Assembly: GCA_963920705.1 (NCBI GenBank)
Contig: OY987227.1
Span: 18,253,434 to 18,317,433, forward strand
DNA: 64,000 nucleotides
Source of the DNA: Odiellus spinosus
Taxonomy: Eukaryota > Arthropoda > Arachnida > Opiliones > Phalangiidae
Direction: 5' to 3'
In this document: positions 21,645-61,096 of the stretch, piece after piece
Position numbering within the stretch: the stretch's first letter is position 1
Layout of the letters: every line of letters begins with the position of its first letter
The notes under the pieces: model-generated
The model's database searches: none
What the model was told of the DNA's origin: nothing
The model's input: only the letters and a program-made list of their open reading frames with translations
Program-made: the position numbers and the translations under genes

Positions 21645-21686
21645 TCATTGGAATCGACACGGCGTATGATAGCATTATGCGAGGAG
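21645..21686 (+). CDS. SNAP25: SNAP-25 exon: start of first SNARE helix
   Basis: This 42-nt exon lies between TTTACAG and GTCTGT and encodes SLESTRRMIALCEE, phase 0 at both ends. It matches the conserved N-terminal part of the first (Qb) SNARE motif; rat has SLESTRRMLQLVEE at the same place, and insect SNAP-25 shares the ALCEE ending. The preceding residue in the family is an acidic DE, which must come from an upstream exon that I could not locate. The next exon follows after a short intron of 303 nt (first alternative copy). The donor GTCTGT is weaker than the GTAAG donors of the following exons. Confidence 0.95.
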
Positions 21687-21989
21687 GTCTGTATCATTCT
21701 TTCTTATATCCAATCAGTATATCGCTTAAATATAATTTCAATTAAGATTAAATACGAAACATTTTAGGCCTATATACCTAATTTCCCGAATAATTACCGG
21801 TAGACTTACAGTGTATATGCCGACAGAATTCGGATAAAGAAATATCGCAAAACACATAAGCACTGTAATTGATTAAAATTAAGAAATATTTCGATTTATA
21901 AAGATAAAAAAAAGATTGAAATTATATATTTAAATATAATTTATCTCCTTTGTTATGACACATTCGCGTTTAATTGGGCCGCTCCTTAG

Positions 21990-22038
21990 AGCAAGGACGC
22001 TGGCATTCGTACTTTAGTGGCGTTGGACGAGCAAGGAG
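21990..22038 (+). CDS. SNAP25: SNAP-25 alternative exon, copy 1 of 3 (SKDAGIRTLVALDEQG)
   Basis: This 49-nt exon between CTCCTTAG and GTAAGC encodes SKDAGIRTLVALDEQG plus the first base of the next Glu codon. It starts in phase 0 and ends in phase 1, exactly like the constitutive exon at this place in vertebrates. It corresponds to rat residues 39-54 and includes the zero-layer glutamine (Q53) and the acidic pair D51/E52. The acceptor is preceded by a poor pyrimidine tract (GGGCCGCTCCTTAG) with the previous AG about 75 nt upstream, so it may be a weak exon. It shares 14 of 16 residues with copy 2 but differs at 12 of 49 bases, ten of them silent, which indicates long-standing purifying selection on both. 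Confidence 0.95.
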
Positions 22039-23381
22039 GTAAGCTAAATAATGAAAAAAGCAAAAAAAAAAAAAACATAGCACTGAAAATTTACGTCATC
22101 CCAATCGATATGATATGCTCGAGTCTCGACCAATGAAAGTAACCATATCCACGCCACGTCATAGTTTCAATGGTGGAATGAAATGACGCCGTCACCCCCG
22201 CTTAAGAATATTTTATGTTTTGGCCAAAAAATAAGTTGCTTTCGATTTATGAAAAAAAATACAAGATTTTTAAGGAAAAAAAAACTGTACAGATATGATG
22301 CTTTTGTGTGTTTTAAATGTCTGGCTTCCCAGGCATGGATATTTCCTCAGTCAATTTTATTATTTTTTTATGGAAAACAAAAAGGTTCTAAACCAGTATC
22401 GGTAAATCAAATTCAGTTTTTGGTATAAATAGGTCAATTCCAAATCTTATTTATTTTCAATATTTTTAAAATTGAACTTCTAAAGATGAAAATTCTTATG
22501 TCAATTTCACCTTAATTTATTTGACAGCACTTTTATAGCGTTTTCCATTTTCTGCTCTAGAGATCTCTGAAATCACTCCGATCGAAGTTTAATATTCAAT
22601 TTGCTTACTGAGATCTGTCTCGAGCAGTTTTCCTATTTGATAAATAGATTCCTTGATCGAGAGCGAGCAGATTTTTGACGCGTTCTATTTGCATATTTTA
22701 TTTCGCGTTGGTAGATAAAATGTTCTAATTAACATAAAAATTGATGAAATCCGAAATTTCTTTATAATTATTCAAGAACCCTTTTTTAAAGGTAGCAGAC
22801 CATGAAACCTTTAAAAAGCGGGGAATCTGATTTGGAAGGTTCCATTATAATATAATATCAATGACGTCACATTTAGATCGAGCGAATCAAATGGAAAACG
22901 CGATTAAATATACGCCGTCGAGTACAAATAATGTACCATATCTCTATCTCGTATACGATTTGGAATCGGCCTTTTATAATTCAAGAATTAGGCAACCATA
23001 TACAGTTTAATTAAAAAAAAAAAGGTAGAAAATAGGCTGATGGAAGCGTCGCATCTTCGGCGGAGCGAATATTTGCACTTATAACTCGATAAAGCTTTTA
23101 ACATTCACAATCCAAGCTTTTCAAGCTTTCTTTTCCAACGCTTTTTTGTGTGACAAATAGTTTGAAAATAGGCTTAGAGAGGGTTAAAGTTGCGAAAGTA
23201 ACAAATTAAAATTTCCTAAACTTCGAAGTTAAAACTAAAATAAAAAAAATAATAAATTGAAAATACAAAAGCCCCTCCGAAATTGCGATTCTTCCCCCCA
23301 CAAACACCCCAAAACACTTTTAAAACCAGAAGAAGAGGGAAAATACGGTTTTCTTGCATTTTGGAGATAAGCTAAAAATAG
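22039..23381 (+). other. Intron between alternative copies 1 and 2 (first part)
   Basis: A+T-rich intron. It contains a full palindromic CRE word TGACGTCA at 22862-22869 and an 81-codon open frame (22183-22428) without recognisable features. No further copy of the 49-nt exon was found here. Confidence 0.6.
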
Positions 23382-23691
23382 TGTTTTTTAATCATTTTTC
23401 TCCTTCTTTTCAAAAACTCCGTTTCTCTTTTTCTTTCTATAAACCAAAAAAATAAAATTAAAAAAAAATCGTCTGGAAACTGTCCCGTATACTAACAAAA
23501 AAATACTAATATGGCTCTCTGGTTCTGCGCCTGATGTTGCCGGCTATGTTTTATATACTATCTCCCTCTATACGTCGTCCGCTTTTTTGGCATTACCAAT
23601 TTGGCTACTGTCTCTATCTCTATCTCTATATCTCCTCTCGTAACTATTTGAAATCTGTGTCTGTTCGTGCCGTCTCTTCGCGCACCCACAG
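23382..23691 (+). promoter_or_regulatory. Long AG-exclusion zone with branch-point-like motifs and CU-rich tract upstream of alternative copy 2
   Basis: Between the AG at 23380-23381 and the acceptor AG at 23690-23691 there is not a single AG dinucleotide in 308 nt. Inside lie a perfect TACTAAC (23490-23496), a TACTAAT (23504-23510), and a CU-rich stretch with repeated CTCTAT units (about 23611-23640). A branch point near 23495 would be about 196 nt from the acceptor. In known mutually exclusive exons such as those of tropomyosin and alpha-actinin, a distant branch point with a long AG-free, PTB-binding pyrimidine tract controls choice. A nearer candidate branch point (GTAAC at about 23640-23644) also exists, so which one is used is inferred, not shown. 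Confidence 0.7.
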
Positions 23692-23740
23692 AGCAAAGAA
23701 GCTGGTATCCGAACCTTGGTTGCTCTCGACGACCAAGGAG
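23692..23740 (+). CDS. SNAP25: SNAP-25 alternative exon, copy 2 of 3 (SKEAGIRTLVALDDQG)
   Basis: This 49-nt exon between CGCACCCACAG and GTAAGG is phase 0 to 1, interchangeable with copies 1 and 3. It encodes SKEAGIRTLVALDDQG, which from memory is identical to the insect SNAP-25 sequence at this position, so it is probably the ancestral or default form. The zero-layer Q and the acidic pair (here DD) beside it are kept. It lies 1653 nt after copy 1 and 4668 nt before copy 3, and its acceptor is served by the unusual 308-nt AG-free zone described separately. Both splice sites look strong. Confidence 0.96.
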
Positions 23741-24109
23741 GTAAGGAAAATCGAAAAGACATTAATTTACCCCCAAATCCCCCCATTCTAATCTCCCGAT
23801 CCCAATCTTACTCTGGTTTAATTAATTACTAGTTAAACCCTATAACGGAAGAACGTGGGAGCTGAAAGAAATGCAATTATCGATTTCGTGATCATCTAAT
23901 TAATAAGTCGATTAGTATAGGCTGATATCATTAGTTTTTCGCACCGAGCTGAATTTGCTTGAGGGTTCGGACACATGCTTACTTAATTTGTGCTACTGGA
24001 ATGTCTGAAAGTTAATTAATCTTATTAATGTTTATATTATGATTTTGGCAAGTACATAAGTCATTGTATTTTGTCGAGTTTACAATTATATACCAAAATG
24101 ACGTAGTAT

Positions 24110-24500
24110 TTTATAGGTCAGAATTGGTCCAAAAGGTCAGGGAATTTCAACGTTTTGTCAAAATATCAGTGAAAATCAGGAAATAGGGTCTCTCATAAAG
24201 GGGAAAATGAAAGTATTTGGTCAGAGAAAACCTGGATAATTTAGGGAATTTGAAATACCAAATTTTGAGGCAAACCATAATTCAGTAGGCTAAAATTATT
24301 TAATCCATCCTACGGGCTTCGAAACAATAGTGCGAAACGATATCAGGATTTCCACAGACTTGGAAAACCTGGAAAAGTCAGTGATTTTAAAAATTGGTCT
24401 AACAAGTCCGGTAATTCTTCTAAATATGTGTGAAAATTGTTTAATGATGTAGATAGGACTTCCGGAAAAACCTGGAAAATTCTCTGGCATCCTTAGATGG
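24110..24500 (+). repeat. Degenerate minisatellite-like region in SNAP-25 intron
   Basis: Loose reiteration of GGTCAGGGAATTT, ACCTGGATAATTTAGGG and ACCTGGAAAAGTCAGTG words. It is clearly related in wording to the ordered array at 6165-6625. Too degenerate for a unit length. Confidence 0.55.
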
Positions 24501-27500
24501 TTTCTGGTTTCAACAGCTTTAGCCATTCTGATAATGGCATTTAACGAAGCTGTTTATATTTGATTTTAATTAATATCGAGCCTAATTACATATTCAATAT
24601 GAACCAAATTATTATCGTATATTGACGTAGTACGACTTTCCAAAATTATTTGATTTATAAATTCGAGCAAATATGTTTTTTATTATTAAAATTGTATATA
24701 ATTAATTAAAGAATGAAAAATAGGCCTAGTAGATAGCGAAATCCTTAAATCATTTCTAACAACGTTCCACGTTCGTATTTTTTCTCCCAAAATCAGTTCA
24801 TTGATAGTAAATATGTAAAAAAATAAAACCAAGAGAAACGAACCAACAGTTCTTAACGTATAAATCGACTAGCATGGGATGTGGGAACGAAATGGGGTAC
24901 ATTTTTCATACAAACGCCCCATTAATATTTGGTTTATTCTGTGGAAATTCGCCAGCTGTCTCTTATATTTACCGAAATAAGAAAAGATTAACCTTATAAG
25001 AAATGCTTAAAATTATGTGTTTTCCATTAATGGAAACAATCTGGGCTGTTCCCTTCAAAAGTATTGACATAATTTTGATGTTACTGTCCAAATTAGTTTT
25101 TGATAAATATGTCAATATTCTCTTTTTAATACCTCTTTAAGACTCTCTCCATTTTTAGGCTTAACTAATCAATATCTATAGTCGTTACCTCGTTTAGAAT
25201 AAAACCCGTGGAGCAGTTTTTTAAAGAGAAAGTCTGAAAACTTCCCTTTAAGTCGTAAATTTAAAATAGTAGATTTATTTTTAAAGCATACTTGATAAAA
25301 TTAAGAAAAAAGCTTTGAATTATTTACCGATGTTGGAAGTTTGATTTTTCCGGAAATTTAGTGAAATATTCCCTATATTAATTATAAATTATAATAAACT
25401 TTTTTTTTTTTTAAATTCCACCTCGAGTTGACAGAGCGCTTAAGGCTAGACTCTATCTTTAGAAGTCAGCAAATGATAGAGATATAACATAGAAAGCCAG
25501 GTTTTTTTATGCTGCAAACTAGAGTAGGAACTGATTTTAGTTCCTATATTGATTCTTAAAAATTACAATCCATTTTTAATTATGAGTGACTACATAATGT
25601 TGGATGGATTCCCCCAAAACCCTTTTTACCCGGTTCATTCTATTTCCCCCAACATTACTTCATTGCCACATCTTTACAGAATTAAATGGAGTACTTGAAC
25701 TCCCGAGTCCCTAACTCATTAAAATTCTACCTTTACGTAAAACAAGGACCCTCTAAAGAATAAATTAAAGACTAAAAAAAAAAACTTAAAATCAATAACC
25801 CCTTCTCTCGAAATTTCCGAATAAATTATATTTCTTCGGTTTCTGTCATCTAGCATTCTTAAGACTAATTCATGGCGATGATTTTCCAGCTCTATAAATT
25901 CCTTAGGAGGAAAATTTATCGGGAATTTAAGCGCCGGGAGAGAATTTATTTCCCCGAGTAATAATCACATTTCCAATTCCTATAAAAGCTAAAACATTTT
26001 AACTTAGCAATGTTTCGATCGAATATTAGAATTTTTGGGGTTTAGACAATATCTAGGTCACCGTTTTGTTTAATTATCGAATTTGGAAATCATTATTGTA
26101 ATTCACCCGCTTTGAGAATAATAGAAATGTTTCTCTAGAAATATCCCTAATGATTTGTTACGAGTTTGAAATAGAATTTGTGTAGAAATTTCGGAAATAT
26201 CATTAAAAACGATTGAAAATATATTTAGATATAGCATTGAAAATATTACCGTCTCAGAAGAATATTGCTTTTTACAAATTTCGCCATTTTAGAAATTTTT
26301 AAAAACCAAAATCCCCCAATACCACGTCATCCCTTTATACTCTTTCTGTCACGTGATACGGTCGCTTTCGCGGGATTTTTTTCGTGAGAGTACGCTTAAT
26401 TCCGAAATTCCTCCTTTTATTTGAAACTTATCGTCAATAATGTTCCATACTTCATCAAACTTAAAAGTTTTAAATATATTTTTCTTATTTTAATATTAAA
26501 GTTTCTTAAAAATGCGTCAGCCCGAAGCTATAAAATTTCAATATGAGTTTTTATTAGTATTAAAAATATATCTATGTTTGGTCTTCTAAAACAAATGATG
26601 ACAGCCTCACTTAAACTAATTTAATCGAAACATCAATTTACGACAGTTTGGCTCCCAGTCTATTTAATAATACAGGCGCGTTCAGATTTCTTAAAGGAGA
26701 AAGCGAAACTCCACGGCTATTATAGTTTACGGCCTTTGCTTCATGATTTCGTGACGTTACCATAACAACCAACTACTTCAAGTACCTTTTTACTTTCCCC
26801 TATATATCTTCGCGCAGCCCATGCAGTCTTTCATTCTCTTCTTTTCTCTCGGAGTTCTATGATTGATAAGTTGGCCAATTTCCACAACAGAGCCTAGTTC
26901 GATATATGAACCCATACATACCAACGAACTAACCCTATATATACCCATTTTAGAGCTATATACATGAAGGGGGTAAAAAAACTCCTTAAAAACCCAGGAG
27001 CTTTTCCAACTATAATATTTTTCTCAAGGGCCGTTTAAGACCTTGGATATTTTTTTTCCTTCATCATTTTTCTAAAACTTCCTTTTCCATCATTATTGCT
27101 CCGAAAAATGTCTGGTTCCCCTACAATATATTTCATCTTGAATCTGTAGCGCGTACAAAGCTAAGTTCCATTCAATATCTGTGGAAAAATAACATAAATA
27201 GATACAAAAAGAGGATAAACTTTTTACTTGATGCAAATTATCTAAGAGAAATTAGACTAGTTTAAAGCATTTTAGTATTCAGTACTTGCAAAGTAAGTTG
27301 CAGAAGTGAGGTTGAGTTATTACGTGCTACAGACTTAAGGTGATCATCCATTTAGTAAGATATCGTTTTAGTTTACACTACTTTCAAAGATATATGCCCC
27401 TTAGTATCCCTAAATGTAGGAAGTAGGCTGAAAACTCAACGTGGAATCAAAAGTCTATCACTTCATTCCATGTAAGTAAGCAACACCCACGTCATAGCCC

Positions 27501-28376
27501 ATCACTTATCGACTTTAACTCGATATTTTGAGTCGGGAGAGAGGGATGGAACTGTGGCGAGCCGCGCTTCCACTTCTGGAATTTCTCCAAAGAGTCGCGT
27601 TTCCGATTTCACTATTTACATCGAATCAGAATCTGCCGGAATATTTACCTGGACCTTTGCTGATAGTGATAGACTTTTGGTGGAATATATTACAGTCAGT
27701 ACCACCTTAAATCAATGGCAAGCCTAAATGTGGATGGTCCCTATAGTTAATAATATAGATATAAGGGATAGACTAGATTTGGACGTGCTTGAAATTCATA
27801 GTGGGATTTCCTTATATATTCTATATCAATCTAAGAAGCAACTCTAATTCCAAATGTTAAAATGGCATATATACTTGGCATAGTATTGTTAACTTGATAT
27901 GGAATGGATTATAAATGGGCAAAAATATAACAATATATCACTTGGACCTGTAAAAACAGATGTGTAAAGGTTCACCCTTCCGTTTAAAACATTCTAAGGT
28001 TTTGTTTCCTTCCTGTTATAGAAAGTTAGAAAAAGGTTATGGCGTGCTCGAGTTTTTTTGGGAATAAAAAATATATATATATGTATATATCACACTGATT
28101 TTTGCTGCCTGTAGTCCTTGGAATATGGTGTGTGCATGTCTGAAATATTATGAACAAAAGTTCCCACTGTATACTTCCTTTTAACACCGTAACATAACCA
28201 ATCCCATTTCTCAATTTATTTTTTATTTTTTGTTTCCTATACATATGTTGTAACACATTTGACACCTTGGTATTTATATATAACATTGTTATTATACTTT
28301 CACGTCACCGCCCGCACAACGCGATTTATACTTTATAGTTTCAAAACATTATTTCTTTTATTTTCTTAGGTTTTCT
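24501..28376 (+). other. Rest of the intron between alternative copies 2 and 3
   Basis: A+T-rich intron with no fourth intact copy of the 49-nt exon. A segment at about 26740-26850 combines a GTGACGTTA word, a TATATAT word and a pyrimidine-rich initiator-like run, which could be an internal promoter but is unsupported. CACGTG occurs at 26350-26355. A 60-codon open frame at 27528-27710 is not recognised. Confidence 0.5.
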
Positions 28377-28382
28377 TGCATG
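28377..28382 (+). promoter_or_regulatory. TGCATG (RBFOX-type) motif 26 nt upstream of alternative copy 3
   Basis: TGCATG at 28377-28382 sits between two acceptor-like AGs, just upstream of the exon start at 28409. A second TGCATG lies at 28133-28138 in the same intron. RBFOX proteins bind this word; upstream sites generally repress and downstream sites activate the neighbouring exon. Functional use here is inference. Confidence 0.45.
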
Positions 28383-28408
28383 CAATTTTTTTTATTATTT
28401 ATTTTTAG

Positions 28409-28457
28409 AGTGAGGATGTAGGGGTTAAAACCTTGACAATGCTGAACAATCAAGGGG
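28409..28457 (+). CDS. SNAP25: SNAP-25 alternative exon, copy 3 of 3, divergent (SEDVGVKTLTMLNNQG)
   Basis: This 49-nt exon between TATTTTTAG and GTAAGG has the same phases as copies 1 and 2. It encodes SEDVGVKTLTMLNNQG. The skeleton S-D/E-x-G-x-x-TL-x-x-L-x-x-QG is kept, including the zero-layer Q. Changes against copy 2 are K to E, E to D, A to V, I to V, R to K, V to T, A to M, D to N and D to N. In rat numbering these include K40E, D51N and E52N, removing two negative charges next to the zero layer. Intact splice sites, exact length, no stop and retained core residues argue against a decayed exon. The flanking TGCATG suggests tissue-specific use. It could still be a relaxed copy; transcript evidence would settle it. 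Confidence 0.9.
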
Positions 28458-29183
28458 GTAAGGAATTTTGAACGCACATCGAATGATTTCGTTGGTTTTC
28501 ATCACCTTTAGTTTTAATTCACGCAATTAGCTTTTGTTTATAGAACATGATACTCCCTGTAGGCTCATCTTTTCTCTGAACACAGAAGCGTTGTTGGTAG
28601 AACACTTCTGAAGGCGACAAATAGAAAATACGATGTTTCATTTCCTCTTACGTAATATATATTTTATCTCAAGACTACGTTAAGTATGGATATTAAGCAA
28701 CAGTTGCGTTAGGCTTAACAACAGTTTCTAATTAGGCTTAAAAGTTACGCATTTTCAAGCGGTCATTAACTATTCTTATGTCAGTTATTTAAGGGATCAT
28801 TTAGGCCTATTTTATGGGCACTTAAATTTTACAAAACTTGTAACGTGAAATAAAACGAAACGGGATGAAAACCATTTTCTTTTTGTTTGTTTTCGCACTC
28901 AATTATTTTCGGGTTATTTAACAAAATCGTAATTGCTCTACGGTCGTTTTAGTGATCTATTTAATGGCACATTAAAAAGCCGCGATGACGTTTTTCTTCT
29001 TAAATCTATTCGAAAACAAAAAATTCGCGTTTTTCTAAACGGTTCGTAAATTGTTGGATTGTTTTCTTGTCGTAATAAATCATTTCTTAACTTCACGCGA
29101 TCAACTGTTTTTATTGGTTATTACGAGATATGTCAGTATCTTTTTTATTTTCTTTTCCCCGTGGCGTTTTTGTCTGACCTCAG
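28458..29183 (+). other. Intron between alternative copy 3 and the cysteine-cluster exon
   Basis: A 726-nt intron. It holds a short block (28550-28630) similar to 11384-11460 and to the transposon end at 61285-61345, sharing ACACTTCTGAAGGCG / ACTTCTACAGGCG. The acceptor is GACCTCAG at 29176-29183. Confidence 0.7.
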
Positions 29184-29301
29184 AGCAATTGGACAGGATC
29201 GAGGAAGACATGGACAAGATCAACGCCGACATGAAAGAAGCCGAAAAGAATTTGACTGGCATGGAAAAATGCTGCGGCATATGTGTTTGCCCGTGCAACA
29301 A
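29184..29301 (+). CDS. SNAP25: SNAP-25 exon: end of first SNARE helix and palmitoylated cysteine cluster
   Basis: This 118-nt exon has, to my recollection, the same length as vertebrate exon 5 (the place where vertebrate 5a/5b alternatives occur). It completes the split Glu codon and encodes [20 protein letters not shown] and onward to the cluster [12 protein letters not shown]. Five cysteines are present, one more than in the vertebrate KFCGLCVCPCNK; these are the palmitoylation sites that hold the protein on the plasma membrane. The donor is GTAGGC. Only a single copy of this exon is seen, so the alternative-exon strategy here has been applied to the preceding exon instead. Confidence 0.97.
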
Positions 29302-29418: not shown

Positions 29419-29484
29419 GTCGAGTGAATTCAAAGAAGATGCCAGCACATGGAAAGCTAACGAAGATGGAAAAGTCGTTACTGG
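29419..29484 (+). CDS. SNAP25: SNAP-25 exon: first part of inter-helix linker
   Basis: This 66-nt exon lies between TTCAAAAAG and GTATAC and encodes, after the split Lys codon, SSEFKEDASTWKANEDGKVV and then TG. It is strikingly close to the invertebrate linker type (Drosophila has a FKEDDGTWKGNDDGKVV-like stretch). The linker joins the two SNARE helices and helps membrane targeting. Its acceptor is poor next to the AG (AAAAAG) but is preceded by a long T-rich tract. Its first bases contain TGA (29425-29427) in one of the wrong frames, which would stop any transcript that joined two of the alternative exons. Confidence 0.94.
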
Positions 29485-30578: not shown

Positions 30579-30723
30579 AATTACAAATGATGCTCGTGAA
30601 GGTGAGATGGAAGAGAATATGGGACAAGTGAACACAATGATTGGAAATCTGCGAAACATGGCTATCGACATGGGCAGCGAAATCGAATCGCAAAACCGAC
30701 AGCTCGATCGTATCAACCAAAAG
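30579..30723 (+). CDS. SNAP25: SNAP-25 exon: first part of second SNARE helix
   Basis: This 145-nt exon between AAATTTAG and GTAAGA encodes [20 protein letters not shown] and onward through [20 protein letters not shown] to QLDRINQK. This is the Qc SNARE motif. The zero-layer glutamine (rat Q174) is in IESQNRQ, and the acidic residue equivalent to rat D166 (AIDMG) is present. Phase 2 at the start, phase 0 at the end. Conservation with other animal SNAP-25 proteins is very high. Confidence 0.97.
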
Positions 30724-30833: not shown

Positions 30834-31269
30834 CTTTAAAGGGAGAATGCAACCTAACAATAAGTGTTTTTTTTTAGATTCCTTATCGTTTACATATACC
30901 TAATCCAATAGGAAAAAAAATAAAAACAAATATTAAACTAGAAATCAAATTAAAACTTACCCAGGAAATAGGCTTAGCTGGATTCAAGGAGATCCGGAGT
31001 TTCTTCGCTTTGATGGGTCAGGAACTAATAAGCAAAGACCGTCGTTAAGGCGAGATCTCCGTGACACCTTCAATAACATTCGATTGATCGCTGACCCTTA
31101 AATGCGAAGAAATTCAGGATCTTTATAAATTCATATTAGCCTATTTTTCGGGTAAGTTTGAAATTTATTTCTAGTTTAATATTTGTAATTTTTTTACTAA
31201 TGCATAGGCCTATTTAAACGATAAGGAATCGATAAACAAATCACTTTAGATTGCATTCTCCCTTTAAAG
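30834..31269 (+). mobile_element. TA-flanked MITE family, copy 2 (intact), in SNAP-25 intron
   Basis: A 436-bp element with perfect 19-bp terminal inverted repeats: CTTTAAAGGGAGAATGCAA (30834-30852) and its complement (31251-31269). The three copies share TA followed by AAGGGAGAAT, which suits a TA target as used by Tc1/mariner-type elements; a TTAA target is the alternative for this copy. The interior is an imperfect palindrome around the CGAGATCTCC core. No coding capacity. Confidence 0.9.
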
Positions 31270-34200
31270 AAAGCTTACACTTTAAAATCATTTTCACTTG
31301 ACGGCGTTCCTTCAAGCTTATTTCGCTTTGTGACGTATTTCTGTATATTATAATAAGTTAATTATTAGCTTAATAATATGTTAATGTAGCCTGCAATTTC
31401 TTCCGCGTCGTTGAAAAATTTGAAATTCGCGACGCATCGCGGTCAGTTTTGGCATTAGATTACGAGAGTAAAAAAGTTTAAAAAAAAACCTCTCCTATTG
31501 GGAAATGTTTAACCAATGGGAGAGACCTCCGAAAAAGATGATGATAGTTTTATTTCTGGAGAGCGGATTTTCCAAAACCGGGAAAATTAAGAGAAGATTA
31601 CACAAAATAAATATTGACCCTCTGGAGTCTGGAAGAAAAATAGGTGTCTTAGTAGGAGCCCACCCTATGATCTTGTTCAACAAAAGAAATCGTCTTACTT
31701 ATCCGCGTAAAACGAAAGTGCAGAGTTGGGCGCTAGTAGAGAGGAGGAAAGTCGTATTTCCTTTGCTTTGGACTCCAATTACGTCACAAATAGTGCCTCC
31801 CCATATCCCGTTTCCAGTATCGGCGCTAAAAGTCAACGACGTTTTTACAAACCTTGGAAACGGCGTCAAAAGTAAACTAAAGTAAGAAAAGAATTCACCT
31901 CTTTCATAACTCTGAAGAAATTACTGGCTACATTATCGATTACAACATACGTTTAACTTAGAGATAATCCCACTTATGGTATTACTACACCATATCCCCT
32001 TATAACTGATTAAAAAAAAAATACGGAAGAAAAAGGTTTCAAAAATCAACAAGTTTTTTTCTCAAAACAAAACTAACACTATATTTTATCTTTGGTTTTA
32101 AACTTTTAATGAATTAGAAACTTTAGCTATGCTTAAGATTGGTTTAGAATTTCTTATAAAAGACGCTGTATGCTTAGGAATTTTGATTCCCATTTTATTT
32201 AAATTAAATTTATGCTCGTCTAGTAGATTTTTTTTTTGCATCGTCATTTTTCATAACTGCAACCATATAAGCAAACGCCTATTTTAGTCAGTCGGTATAT
32301 TTCATATTTCACTTTAGCACTCGCAAAAGTTATGTTCCTCTGTCTCTATGATTTATTTTATAAGACAGAGAAAGGGGAAACCTAATTTTGTTCGCGCTGA
32401 AATCCGAGTGTGAGACTACAAACTATCTTCTAGTTTTAAGTTCGTTTTGAATAATTAAACCATTTATTAGTTGAGGAATATTTTTCTAAAGCTATATGTG
32501 ATAAACTTGCTTAGTTTTACGAAGCACGCGTAAATTTTTGTTAGAAATTAAAAATTTTAAGACGTTGAACCTCCCTCGAGATTCGTTTTTTCAACCGGAA
32601 TTTGTTTTACTATTGAAGCTACGTTAATTATATAATTAAATACAATCAGAAGGAGATAAGAAAAATTTAGTTATTGGTGAAAAGCGAGAGCGTTATCCTG
32701 GATATAAGTGATAAAAATTTAAAAAAAGATGGATCAAAAATACGTTGAACAAGATGACACTAAATCATTTCAAGTATCTCAATCGGGCTTTTGAGTAGCT
32801 AAGCCTTGGCTGCTTTCAAAGACTCAACCGACACTGGTGTATTCTTATTAGTTTCTGCTTTAGCCAATGTTAGTATAGTTCCTTAATTTTGAAATCCTCA
32901 AATAATTCAAATTAAAACATTTGAAGTGGTCAAAATTTCGTAGGCACCAGAAACAAAGGTCAAAATTAAGTGCGTAACTTATTCCAGAAAATAAATAAAA
33001 AAGACAATAGTGAATTATATCCCTCACTCTTGGACTAAAAATCTCCGGGATTAATCCAAATCACTGAACAGGGATCGTAGGCTTAGCTAATTTTTTAGTT
33101 ATGCGTCAGCTCGAGCTTGCTTATGACGTACAATTTGCAGTTTTCTGAAAACGTTACTTTACTGAGCGTTAATTTCTTTCCTGGCGTACTTAGCAAGATT
33201 AGTATCTCACTTCTCCTTTTATCTCTTTTTTGATAAGACGTAGTTTCGTTATTTTAACAAATTCTAACTGAAAATAAATGTACCGTCGATATACGCTTTG
33301 GTTCAAGAACATGGATTTTGCAGCGCTAACTTTTTTTCCAACGCAATAAGGCTTAACATTGTTTTATTAATCCTAAGCCTATTCAGCTTTGGCTATTTTG
33401 CAAACTGCTCTCGAAAGAATGTATAGAGAAGCGCATTGCTGTATATTTTCCCACCGTAGGACTTAGTTTTAAACTAATTTCTCTTTTCGAGGTGTATGTG
33501 CGTGCATTTACTATTTTTAAATGTTTTTAAATTGCAAGATTTGTGCTTTTTAATAGTAGTAGTTGTATGGTTTTAATTCTCTATCTGCTGGGCTTTAATG
33601 AGAAAACATTTTTTAACATAATTACTTTTACTTTTTTTTTGTTTTTTCTAAAACTCCCTTTTTCTCAATTTCTTCAAAACACAAAATCCTCTTTCTTTTA
33701 ATTTTAAAACGTTGAAAAAAATCTTTGAAACCTTCTATATTTAATTCCCTATTATTATCATTAAAAAACCCTATTTGTTTTATGAAATTAAATTAAAATA
33801 AAGGCCGAATCCAATGATTTACGCATACAAGACGCGAATAAAAGAGCCGTCAAGCTTTTAAAATAATTATTTTTAATTTTTTAATTATTGTTACAATATT
33901 TTAATTTTCTTTTATTTTTCTGTTTTTAATTTTAATTTTATTATTTTTTTTTTTTGTTTTGTTTATCCTTATTTTCCTGTTTTTCCGTACGTACTTATTA
34001 TTTTCTATTTCAAAAAACTAATTTACTAAAACTTATTTTGGTTATCTTAAAAAAATTGGCATATTTTTTATTATTTTTTTAATTTAATTAGGCGGAAAAT
34101 GTTGATAGTAGATTACATAATGCTAATCAAAGGGCGGATAAAATTCTTAGAGAGGCTTAAATAAGAGAACTAAGTGATCCCAACTTAATCACCGATAAAA

Positions 34201-34690: not shown

Positions 34691-34756
34691 GCCACATCAA
34701 ACAACGTTCGTATTGAAGCGGCCAATCAGAGGGCCAACAAGCTTCTCAAAGATTAA
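34691..34756 (+). CDS. SNAP25: SNAP-25 terminal exon: C-terminus and stop
   Basis: This exon follows AATAAACAG and encodes ATSNNVRIEAANQRANKLLK plus a final D, then TAA at 34754-34756. It corresponds to the end of the second SNARE helix (rat [22 protein letters not shown]). It joins the previous exon in phase 0. The C-terminus is LLKD, the invertebrate style, in place of the vertebrate MLGSG. The intron before it is 3967 nt. Confidence 0.96.
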   Translation, partial: ATSNNVRIEAANQRANKLLKD

Positions 34757-57055: not shown

Positions 57056-58740
57056 AAAGAACAACAGCAACTCCCCATAAGAGTCTGGGTCCACGTAATG
57101 TTAAAAATTTTCGTCTCTTTTATGATAAATTCGTATTATATTATTAAAATAGGGTAGTTGGGGGATAATTTAAAGCTAAAATTCGAGCTCACAACTGTAA
57201 ATTTTGGGAATTACAACGAATGGAAGGTTTCTTCCATAATGTAAAGAATAGGAAGAATCTATGACTTCCGTGCCGGATATGAAAGCCTTCCCCCACACGA
57301 AAATCTTGAACGGTTATTATTTTAGATTCATAATTATGTTAGGAAAATATTAGGAAAGAATTATTTTGTAACTGCCACGGGTATAGTGCTGGCGGCAAAA
57401 TGAAATTCGTATATTTTTGGTCTACTATGCCTCGAAATCCTCGAAAACGCCTGTAGAAGTGTTCCACTTGTCAAGCATTCATGCAGTAGGCTTTTGCTAG
57501 CTTTACAGGGGCCGTGCAAAGACTATATAGCTTACTTGAATAGTCTTTGGTGTATAAGAAACTCGAAAAATAAATAGAGAAATCATACAAATTAGAAGAT
57601 ACTGGAGTAGTATCTTTAATTTTTATTTCATATTAAACAAAACACACTTGTATAAAACGGACAAATTATTCATTTAACGCTAAGGTTTTCTACGTTTAAC
57701 GTATGTCTGGTAGTTCAAGCTCAGTGGCATCTTCACACACTACACGCAATTTTGACTGGTACCAACTGCCTCGATCTTCATGGCGACGATAACCAAGATA
57801 CCAGATTACGCTGCTAACGTGAACACAAGTACCTATCGTCAAACTACCACCTTTGCAATTGCAATACCAGCCTTTAATGGCATTTGCACCTGTCCCGTTC
57901 GGTACATAACGAATTAGAGCTTGGTGAACAGCTGAGGTGGAAAATTGACCAGGCACGCGTATACGAATTAGGTCATGTTCAACTTTGGACACTTCGACGC
58001 TGAAAGAGCCGGATTTCTCTATAGTCAACGCCACATAAGATTCAGCGCGTTTCGTTTTAAAGTCGCTCATTACCACCTCACGTACATCACTTTCACGAAG
58101 TACAGGGAAGTCTTGAAATTCACTATCCTCAATTCGTTGCCATTGAGGATTTTCTTTCGTAGAGACTGCCAGCATTTTTTCGACGGAGTCTTCCCAGGAA
58201 CCTTTAAGATGTAACTCCGGGTGGTAGGCGTTCAACAGCGCAGCAGCAATTTGAAGAAGTTCCGGAACTAATGGTAACATATGCACAGGTATACGGTTTT
58301 GAAAAAAACGATACACCGTCTGCAAATGCCCATTCCTAACTTCAACCGGCCACCTGAGGTACGTTACTTGTCGGGAACGATTAACTTCTTGCGTGTTTAC
58401 TTGCTTCTCGCCTTTAGACAAGAACGAAGGCATTTGTAAATCCACACCCAGTTCAGTCAGTACGCTGTTGGAGTCTCGAAAACCGCGGTCTGCCAGTACA
58501 ACGTCACCAACTTGAAAGAAAGACTGGAGTTCTTCTCTCTTTTTGATAGAATGGTTTAAAATGCGCGCGTCGTTATTGCGGCCATTAGCAAAGTAGGGTC
58601 CGATTATATGTATTATGTAACCCGTAGTTGTTACCATTAACATTGGCTTGAGGATATGCTGGCCTTTGTGCACACAGAAGGATTTGTGAAGAACGGTATA
58701 GTCCTTGGATCTTCCAACCTTGATATAGGTGCCATCTACA
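57056..58740 (-). repeat. Left arm of the inverted repeat
   Basis: Reverse complement of 60007-61736, differing by a few substitutions and a 45-bp deletion. It contains the transposase 3' half, 3' untranslated part and outer end. The inner boundary at 58740 is 2 nt from a perfect 22-bp palindrome (58742-58763, centre GACGTC). Confidence 0.93.
57696..58740 (-). pseudogene. 5'-truncated transposase copy (catalytic core plus SWIM finger)
   Basis: Homologous to the transposase from the first catalytic Asp (VDGTYIKVGRSKDY) to the C-terminus. The reading frame is open and runs upstream to an ATG at 58814 in non-homologous spacer DNA, giving 372 codons, but the N-terminal fingers and HTH are missing. 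All three acidic positions are present (VDGTY, LADRGF, WPVEVRNG), as is the SWIM-type CxC...CxH. It carries a 15-codon in-frame deletion after KENP relative to the other copy. At the site of the premature stop in the right copy it has the Lys codon AAG. Probably not a functional transposase, though a DNA-binding-deficient product could be made. Confidence 0.88.
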
Positions 58741-58741
58741 T

Positions 58742-58763
58742 ATATTAAAGACGTCTTTAATAT
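58742..58763. repeat. Perfect 22-bp palindrome at inner arm boundary
   Basis: Self-complementary around GACGTC, with flanking ATATTAAA / TTTAATAT. It lies immediately inside the left inverted arm, at the junction with the spacer. Confidence 0.9.
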
Positions 58764-58903
58764 TTTTTGCCAGCCAGGTTGGCGAAAAATAATTAAACCT
58801 GTTTTTATAAACATTAAAAAAATTGTAATATCTGGTTTGAACCATGATCTTAAGAACTTTCCTTATCAATAACATCAATGTGAGAGTCACTTGGAATTTG
58901 GAG

Positions 58904-61096
58904 ATGGCTCCAAATACATGTTACGCGTGCAATCGGAAAGTTACCAATAGTACAAGTAGAGGTATAGGCACTCACGTAAAGGCTGGCTTTGCTCGTTTTC
59001 TTCGTTTTAGTGAAGGGTTATTACCACTTGTAATTAATAGCAAAACAACGAAGATTTGTTTAAAGTGCTCGGGTCTGTCACGAAAGTTTCAAACGTTCTT
59101 AAATGCTAGCAAATCGTCCTTCAGTAGTGATCATGGCTCTTCAACGTCATCGTCTCCACCACAAAAACGAAGACAAATGACGCAAGTATCTAATCCATCA
59201 ACGTCAACAGTACCTGAGCCATCAACGTCCACAGTACCTGAACCAACAAAGTCCACAGTATCTAATCCATCACCGTCACCAATACCTCAGCCATCAACGT
59301 CGCAATTACCACGAAAGCGTACGTCATCAAACACTATTGCCATAAAGCACAGTTGTGTTCGGCCCCTGCCAAAGACTTGCTTCATTTGCGGTGTTAGTAC
59401 ACGAACCAGGGTAAAAGCCGAAGTGAGAACAAGTATATTTGTGGAAAGAGCCATATTTATTCATCGGGACAACCGAATGTGCTCCACGCATCTCGTTAAC
59501 GGAGAGCTTCCCACCGAAATAATTGCTGGAATTCAGGTTTCCGCTAGATCAACCATTATGACTGCCACGGACATTGAGCAACTATTACAGGACCTCAGGA
59601 AATGTGTTAACGACCTACGGACGCCGAGCTTTGACAACTTCATACAAAGTGATGAAGACTGTGAAGTATTAACTTCATTGTCCCTGCACGAGTTCCTAGA
59701 GTTGCATTCGACTATTGAGGACATTATTCGTACCATCAGATGCTGTTCGTCGAAGACAGCTCTAGCAGTATTATTGGTGAAATTACGATTGGGTATCTCC
59801 AATAAGGTGTTATCAACTTTATTTCATTTAACTGAAAGATCGGTATCAAACACGGTAAAAGCGGTTATTATGGCTTTATCGGAGCATTTCGTGCCACATA
59901 ATTTTGGCCTGCAACACTTATCACGTGACAATCTGATAACAAACCATCAATCTGGAGCAGCAGTAAAACTCTTTGCTAACAACAAGCCTAATTGTCTTAT
60001 TACCATTGTAGATGGCACCTATATCAAGGTTGGGAGATCCAAGGACTATACCATTCTTCACAAATCCTTCTGTGTGCACAAAGGCCAGCATATCCTCTAG
60101 CCAATGTTAATGGTAACAACTACGGGTTACATAATAGATATAATCGGACCCTACTTTGCTAATGGCCGCAATAACGACGCGCGCATTTTAAACCATTCTA
60201 TCAAAAAGAGAGAAGAACTCCAGTCTTTCTTTCAAGTTGGTGACGTTGTACTGGCAGACCGCGGTTTTCGAGACTCCAACAGCGTACTGACTGAACTGGG
60301 TGTGGATTTACAAATGCCTTCGTTCTTGTCTAAAGGCGAGAAGCAAGTAAACACGCAAGAAGTTAATCGTTCCCGACAAGTAACGTACCTCAGGTGGCCG
60401 GTTGAAGTTAGGAATGGGCATTTGCAGACGGTGTATCGTTTTTTTCAAAACCGTATACCTGTGCATATGTTACCATTAGTTCCAGAACTTCTTCAAATTG
60501 CTGCTGCGCTGTTGAACGCCTACCACCCGGAGTTACATCTTAAAGGTTCCTGGGAAGACTCCGTCGAAAAAATGCTGGCAGTCTCTACGAAAGAAAATCC
60601 TCTTAAGGAAGTAGTCGAGCGCGATAATCTGCTTCGCAAACCGTCTAAATGGCAACGAATTGAGGATAGTGAATTTCAAGACTTCCCTGTACTTCGTGAA
60701 AGTGATGTACGTGAGGTGGTAATGAGCGACTTTAAAACGAAACGCGCTGAATCTTATGTGGCGTTGACTATAGAGAAATCCGGCTCTTTCAGCGTCGAAG
60801 TGTCCAAAGTTGAACATGACCTAATTCGTATACGCGTGCCTGGTCAATTTTCCACCTCAGCTGTTCACCAAGCTCTAATTCGTTATGTACCGAACGGGAC
60901 AGGTGCAAATGCCATTAAAGGCTGGTATTGCAATTGCAAAGGTGGTAGTTTGACGATAGGTACTTGTGTTCACGTTAGCAGCGTAATCTGGTATCTTGGT
61001 TATCGTCGCCATGAAGATCGAGGCAGTTGGTACCAGTCAAAATTGCGTGTAGTGTGTGAAGATGCCACTGAGCTTGAACTACCAGACATACGTTAA
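58904..61096 (+). pseudogene. DDE transposase with C2CH finger, HTH and SWIM domain, interrupted by one in-frame stop
   Basis: Frame of 731 codons from ATG at 58904 (upstream ATG at 58844 is less likely: it adds 20 residues without features) to TAA at 61094-61096, broken by TAG at 60098-60100. Domains: CxxC...CxxC (C6, C9, C52, C55); Ser/Thr/Pro-rich repeats (about 99-135); a THAP-like C2CH pattern C159-x2-C162...C193-x2-H196; HTH_Tnp_4-like segment about 286-325; DDE core with D370 (VDGTY), D452 (LADRGF) and E501 (PVEVRNG); SWIM-type finger C676-x-C678...C688-x-H690. Such proteins cut and rejoin element ends in the nucleus. The other arm reads Lys at the stop position, so the stop is a recent single-base change. 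As it stands, the first product would end just after D370. Confidence 0.9.

Follow-up and report, generated by a model that had tools for sequence, protein, structure and literature searches.

The SNAP-25 gene of the arachnid Odiellus spinosus (Opiliones; Phalangiidae) carries three tandem homologous versions of exon 4, here called 4a, 4b and 4c, and three homologous last coding exons, L1, L2 and L3. The gene was analysed in a stretch of 64,000 nucleotides (nt), hereafter the window, which corresponds to positions 18,253,434 to 18,317,433 of the forward strand of contig OY987227.1 (assembly GCA_963920705.1). From the sequence, we consider it probable that a regulated and mutually exclusive choice among the exon-4 copies tunes the coupling of SNAP-25 to synaptotagmin-1 (Syt1), and not the zippering of the SNARE bundle.

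Three homologous copies of exon 4

An initial annotation of this DNA had proposed three 49-nt exons with AG/GT borders, one common phase and homologous translations, and all of these properties were recovered: each copy has AG upstream and GTAAG downstream, and all share one phase.

21990..22038, + strand: exon 4a, 49 nt, SKDAGIRTLVALDEQG plus 1 nt
23692..23740, + strand: exon 4b, 49 nt, SKEAGIRTLVALDDQG plus 1 nt
28409..28457, + strand: exon 4c, 49 nt, SEDVGVKTLTMLNNQG plus 1 nt

Each exon encodes its own version of SNAP-25 residues 39-54, and the three versions are homologous. The segment encoded by 4b is the same as that of Drosophila SNAP-25. Compared with residues 39-54 of vertebrate SNAP-25 (PDB 3j96 chain), the sole difference of 4a is M49A, and 4c shows K40E, A42V, I44V, R45K, V48T, D51N and E52N. 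4a and 4b are identical at 14/16 amino acids and 36/48 nt, 4a and 4c at 8/16 and 26/48, and 4b and 4c at 7/16 and 26/48. Exon 4c, whose acceptor is T-rich and whose donor is GTAAGG, lies 4.7 kb away from 4b.

Likeness by chance is ruled out by the gap between the scores of the copies and those of background frames. The window contains 44,519 open frames of 16 codons, both strands and the three copies counted. When all of these were scored against 4a, the other two copies reached 70 and 46 and the next-best frame 25; frames other than the copies had a mean score of -16.2 with a standard deviation of 8.0. Requiring the spacing between AG and GT left 60 + 56 candidates (the copies being among the 60), and the next-best score then fell to 7. 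The divergence between the copies, which lie on one contig, makes an assembly error, named in the initial annotation as a possible refutation, very unlikely, and a recent duplication likewise.

The gene itself was correctly recognised as SNAP-25 in that annotation. The protein version containing 4c and L2 matches the Pfam SNAP-25 family (PF00835, E 5.2e-20), and the best PDB matches of the spliced protein from exon 3 onward are SNAP-25 chains (E 2.2e-67, residues 1-180 of the 182-residue query). Both SNARE motifs have their zero-layer glutamines, one being Q53, which is present in every exon-4 copy as had been claimed, and the other lying in the QNRQ of exon 8; the central cysteine cluster, CCGICVCPC, is in exon 5. 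The remaining exons outside the last-exon array are the following.

C3:18195517-18195597, about 58 kb upstream of the window on the same contig: N-terminal exon, MDDAANGMGGKSELEMLQVKANETTDE
21645..21686, + strand: exon 3, SLESTRRMIALCEE
29184..29301, + strand: exon 5, 118 nt, begins EQLDRIEED, plus 2 nt; counterpart of vertebrate 5a/5b
29419..29484, + strand: exon 6, linker, KSSEFKEDASTWKANEDGKVVTG; introns split its first and last codons
29590..29652, + strand: exon 7, QPTRVMDDRNGAGPTAGYIA
30579..30723, + strand: exon 8, ITNDAREG...RINQK, first part of the Qc helix

The tripled exon thus immediately precedes the counterpart of the vertebrate 5a/5b exon, and that following segment is single-copy, both as originally described: a search of the window for second copies of exons 3, 5, 6, 7 and 8 found none. 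The N-terminal exon was sought in the window, not found there, and then located with self-made consensus queries, the best of which gave E 2e-4; queries with the Drosophila and human sequences match it weakly, with E values of 0.07 and 0.24. Over 49 codons, exon 8 shares 87.8% identity with the Drosophila protein, which points to an arthropod gene. A search with a piece of this exon in a collection of prokaryote species yielded 54 matches to the pattern, none of them confirmed as a relative. The donor of exon 3, gtctgt (21687-21692), deviates from the consensus gtaagt, to which the donors of the three exon-4 copies (gtaag) are nearer.

A SNAP-25 query of the whole assembly (443 Mb, 286 contigs) matched this gene in six exons and, weakly, a single SNAP-29-like Qc stretch (E 0.035). 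No second SNAP-25 locus was found in this way; it should be noted that the same query overlooked the gene's own exons 3, 4b, 4c, L1 and L2, so that a diverged paralogue could have escaped it too.

The reading frame favours one exon 4 per transcript

The exon-4 region displays the arrangement by which mutually exclusive clusters are recognised: homologous exons in tandem, all of one length and one phase, with constant exons on either side. All eight combinations of the exon-4 copies were spliced in silico between exons 1 and 3 and exons 5-8 plus L3. With 4a, 4b or 4c alone the product is an open protein of 209 amino acids in each case, whereas with none, with 4a+4b, 4a+4c or 4b+4c, or with all three, translation stops at codons 58-116, which is 265-436 nt before the last junction. 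Exactly one copy therefore yields a full-length protein, in agreement with the earlier reading of the copies as mutually exclusive. The products with L1 and L2, each joined with 4a only, are open as well. We infer that transcripts use 4a, 4b and 4c in a mutually exclusive manner: one exon 4 would be selected per transcript, and transcripts with any other number of copies would undergo nonsense-mediated decay.

Divergence of the copies spares the proposed SNARE core

Eleven codons differ between 4a and 4b, nine synonymously and two non-synonymously; the non-synonymous rate (dN) is 0.087 and the synonymous rate is not computable, estimates that rest on the small sample of 16 codons. This pattern, which is to be expected if synonymous sites are saturated, fits an old divergence under protein-level constraint. 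Exon 4c has changed more, with eight amino acid changes relative to 4a (dN 0.45; seven synonymous and eight non-synonymous codon differences) and nine relative to 4b (dN 0.42).

Exon 4 spans what we take to be layers -4 to 0 of the SNARE core, represented by S39, G43, T46, L50 and Q53. These positions were assigned from the heptad register, which was anchored in part on the published placement of I67 at layer +4 (PMC10911398). All five proposed layer residues are identical in 4a, 4b and 4c. None of the eight changes of 4c relative to 4a, distributed over 16 positions, falls on the five proposed layer positions (chance 0.013, presupposing an equal rate of change at every position), nor does any of the nine changes relative to 4b (chance 0.005, a figure that is not independent of the comparison with 4a). 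Since the proposed core positions are identical, the diversity lies on the outer face of the helix, which includes Syt1 contacts. The proposal that the triplet diversifies the middle of the Qb helix is thus accurate in that the sequence varies there, but the variation is confined to the outer face and leaves the proposed core as it was. The register also draws on published variants: in the N-terminal part, G43R and L50S lower the stability of the complex, and variants at the outward-facing Syt1 interface, including K40E, V48F and D166Y, are described as causing no significant destabilisation (PMC10102358).

Predicted effect of 4c on synaptotagmin-1 coupling

The SNAP-25 residues described as important at the primary interface with the C2B domain of Syt1 are K40, D51, E52, E55, Q56 and D166 (PMC8967716). 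At the contacts encoded by exon 4, 4a has K40/D51/E52, 4b has K40/D51/D52 and 4c has E40/N51/N52. The changes K40E, D51N and E52N of 4c therefore affect three published contacts, and its V48T lies at a position that also differs in SNAP-23, which near the primary interface carries K40Q, L47I and V48T (PMC8967716). On the partner side, Syt1-like C2B exons (G000 C11:17575148-17576189) keep all five of the residues R281, E295, Y338, R398 and R399, in a numbering counted on the rat sequence.

Work on other animals indicates what changes at this interface can do. The triple mutation D51A/E52A/E55A weakens C2B binding (PMC4878868), and a SNARE complex with K40A/D51A/E52A/E55A/D166A was made to disrupt the primary interface (PMC9811660). 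V48F and D166Y reduce the association with Syt1, increase spontaneous release and make evoked release less synchronous (PMC10911398), and replacement of SNAP-25 by SNAP-23 leads to asynchronous release (PMC4244210). Based on these observations, our prediction is that isoforms with 4a or 4b are coupled to Syt1 and that those with 4c are uncoupled or re-tuned. The combination of K40E, D51N and E52N with V48T would weaken or re-tune the coupling, and release driven by 4c would be less clamped and less synchronous, as in mouse neurons with SNAP-23 or with primary-interface mutants; the isoforms may also differ in their use among tissues.

Several points weigh against this prediction and the wider view of which it is part. 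All three Syt1 contacts in the exon are changed in 4c, an outcome with a chance of 0.10, or of 0.34 when changes are restricted to non-core positions. The concentration of changes at Syt1 contacts is thus not significant, and what is seen is a bias away from the core, whereas a bias towards Syt1 is unproven. The layer register on which the core bias depends is itself in part a proposal, and the chance figures presuppose equal rates of change at all positions. The substitutions of 4c differ from the mutations tested in experiments, and these do not all act in the expected way: K40E lowered evoked release and left spontaneous release unaltered, and modelling cited in the same review suggests that it weakens contacts inside SNAP25 (PMC10102358). 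The complex with D51A/E52A/E55A is less resistant to sodium dodecyl sulphate (PMC4878868), and 4c may therefore also reduce the stability of the complex. V48F and D166Y raise the association with partner SNAREs, and they are accordingly not mere copies of a loss of Syt1 binding (PMC10911398). In addition, no support for 4a and 4b came from the one candidate docking site described below.

Three homologous last coding exons

The initial annotation did not contain a second array, which lies at the 3' end of the coding sequence and consists of three homologous exons, each preceded by AG and entered in phase 0; the last of them ends at 34756.

33804-33866, + strand: L1, AESNDLRIQDANKRAVKLLK and stop; poor pyrimidine tract at the acceptor
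34092-34160, + strand: L2, AENVDSRLHNANQRADKILREA and stop
34691-34756, + strand: L3, ATSNNVRIEAANQRANKLLKD and stop

Among AG-preceded frames ending after 18-28 codons (500 + 527, the copies among them), comparison with L3 gave scores of 59 and 43 for the other two copies and of 18 for the next-best frame. L1 differs from L3 at 7/20 positions, none of which is among six proposed layer positions (chance 0.044), and L2 has three changes at proposed layer positions, two of which are I/L exchanges. The hexamers AATAAA or ATTAAA occur at 33837, inside L1, at 34379, 34412 and 34682, between L2 and L3, and also after L3. No such poly(A)-signal hexamer lies in the interval from the end of L1 to L2, so that L1 would probably use a shared downstream end.

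Similarly to the choice of exon 4, a choice among L1, L2 and L3 would diversify the Qc helix in its C-terminal half. With three copies each of exon 4 and of the last exon, up to 3 x 3 = 9 protein versions could arise if every exon copy is used. It is tempting to combine the two arrays into a single code in which exon 4 sets the hold of Syt1 on the SNARE bundle, 4c being uncoupled or SNAP-23-like, and the last exon sets C-terminal zippering, which would provide the neurons of this animal with up to nine release machines and no change of gene. This extended proposal is tentative, and we regard it as possible rather than probable.

Candidate elements for splicing control

A possible splicing-control hairpin is formed by two sequences in the intron that follows exon 4c.

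28493..28534, + strand: left arm of the stem, from base 36 of the intron that follows exon 4c
28833..28874, + strand: right arm of the stem, upstream of exon 5

The stem comprises 42 nt with 79% complementarity (-35.6 kcal/mol). Its pairing is the strongest in a scan of windows from 21690 to 28860, although the site had itself been picked for the stem, and it ranks 8th among the 15 inverted repeats in the window that score at least 45 (spans to about 800 nt considered). In other exon arrays, a shared docking site pairs with selectors. When one candidate docking site taken from the 4c stem was compared with 139 windows, the flank of 4c ranked 4, that of 4a 30 and that of 4b 70; given the last two ranks, the stem does not, at this one site, appear to act like the shared docking site of other arrays. 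The arms matched nothing elsewhere in the genome at E <= 0.001 among the best candidates. Three other genomic places did match at that threshold, each to an inner stretch of ~60 nt and none to the arms. An origin of the stem from transposon terminal repeats is not indicated, as the arms are unmatched elsewhere.

The word TGCATG occurs at 28133 and 28377, at most 280 nt upstream of 4c; these are two of its four + strand occurrences in the window, and the position was noticed post hoc. In other animals these words serve as Rbfox sites, and an Rbfox-type control of 4c is possible. The mechanism that we favour would be a factor-controlled choice combined with decay of misspliced forms.

Alternative explanations

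The changes of 4c could instead tune a partner other than Syt1, such as complexin, Munc13/Munc18, alpha-SNAP or one of the partner syntaxins, for instance outside neuronal tissue. As a whole they stay clear of the proposed core, with no significant concentration at Syt1 contacts. For V48F and D166Y, an effect on alpha-SNAP binding has also been predicted (PMC10102358), and both raise SNARE association (PMC10911398). However, all three of the Syt1 contacts that the exon encodes are changed, two of the changes neutralise an acidic patch, and the residues on the Syt1 side are intact; on balance we find this explanation rather doubtful. According to another view, 4a and 4b form the true exclusive pair, and 4c is decaying or rarely used and has no function of its own. 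This would agree with its far greater divergence (8/16 amino acids shared with 4a, against 14/16 for 4b), with its distance from 4b, and with the ratio of seven synonymous to eight non-synonymous codon differences from 4a. Decay is disfavoured by the retention of all five proposed layer residues, and 4c has an open frame of exactly the right length, the T-rich acceptor and the GTAAGG donor, which makes this view unlikely.

It is also conceivable that the extra copies serve mainly for poison splicing, in which double inclusion or skipping cuts the level of SNAP-25 through decay and the differences in protein are minor. Any copy number except one does stop early, 265-436 nt ahead of the last junction, but skipping of an exon would by itself be enough for this purpose, and neither the low dN between 4a and 4b nor the unchanged proposed core positions of 4c would be explained; we consider it very unlikely. 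An assembly artefact or a collapse of paralogous genes, in favour of which nothing was found, can be set aside as extremely improbable, given that the copies share no more than 36/48 and 26/48 nt and lie inside one contig of 29.4 Mb, and that the query of the 443-Mb assembly described above revealed no further SNAP-25 locus. The reading that we prefer thus remains an exclusive exon-4 choice that would act on Syt1 coupling.

Other features of the window and the genome

The intron after exon 8 contains nested inverted repeats (30834-31269) with arms of 113 and 24 nt. Strong inverted repeats with arms of up to 220 nt cluster at 1-920 together with repeated reading frames, and probably belong to a mobile or satellite element. 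Two DDE_Tnp_4 transposase frames identified by Pfam matches, which encode near-identical proteins, form an inverted pair at 57699-58862 (- strand) and 58841-61093 (+ strand). Elsewhere in the genome, 9 of the 13 matches of a COX1 family search lie in a contig of nuclear size (C17 of G000); two of them overlap, and several contain TAG or TAA besides TGA. The matches in this contig are probably nuclear mitochondrial insertions. In the mitochondrial contig, of which 10,000 of 16,074 bases were read, cox2 comes immediately after cox1 and no tRNA separates them, an order that departs from the usual one of insects.

Comparison with known systems

Tandem exon choice is already known as a mechanism in SNAP-25, and what appears to be new here is its site, the number of members and the second tripled exon. 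As the initial annotation proposed, this arrangement may have arisen independently in the lineage. The vertebrate isoforms SNAP-25a and SNAP-25b belong to the same family and likewise arise from a tandem exon duplication in the region of the Qb helix with a choice of one of n, a choice that in the present gene is inferred. The vertebrate pair 5a/5b differs in that it has two members and concerns exon 5, whereas here the preceding exon has three members and a second exon is tripled at the C-terminus. The vertebrate duplication of the 118-nt exon 5 is absent from the window, which holds one exon 5; it is described for bony fish and higher vertebrates, and none is reported in Torpedo or Drosophila (PMC2581893). 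In arthropod clusters of the Dscam1 and Mhc type, too, homologous exons that agree in length and phase stand in tandem, with several clusters per gene. Compared with them, the arrays described here are small (three and three) and belong to a SNARE of ~209 residues, and the stem beside 4c has no comparable pairing with the flanks of 4a and 4b at the one site examined. The vertebrate paralogue SNAP-23 has V48T and the loss of K40 in common with 4c. In contrast to SNAP-23, 4c also lacks the charges of D51 and E52, keeps L47, and is an exon within SNAP-25 and not a separate gene.

Among the listed literature matches, no title or abstract opening mentions an exon-4 array, a triplet or a double triplet in SNAP-25, a negative that excludes subscription papers and gene-model databases, so that automatically annotated isoforms may exist. 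In the available parts of the surveys of human homologous exons, SNAP-25 is named for human only in two (PMC5740500, PMC4465641) and is unnamed in the main text of a third (PMC9741552).

If our view is right, SNAP-25 would have a second place at which animals have put a splice switch. The primary interface between Syt1 and the SNARE complex is usually studied with engineered or disease mutations, whereas here interchangeable versions of it have apparently been made by evolution. K40E, known from human encephalopathy, is among the changes, and the proposed core is unaltered. Should different neurons use different isoforms, this gene would provide a natural test of whether the primary interface sets the synchrony of release.

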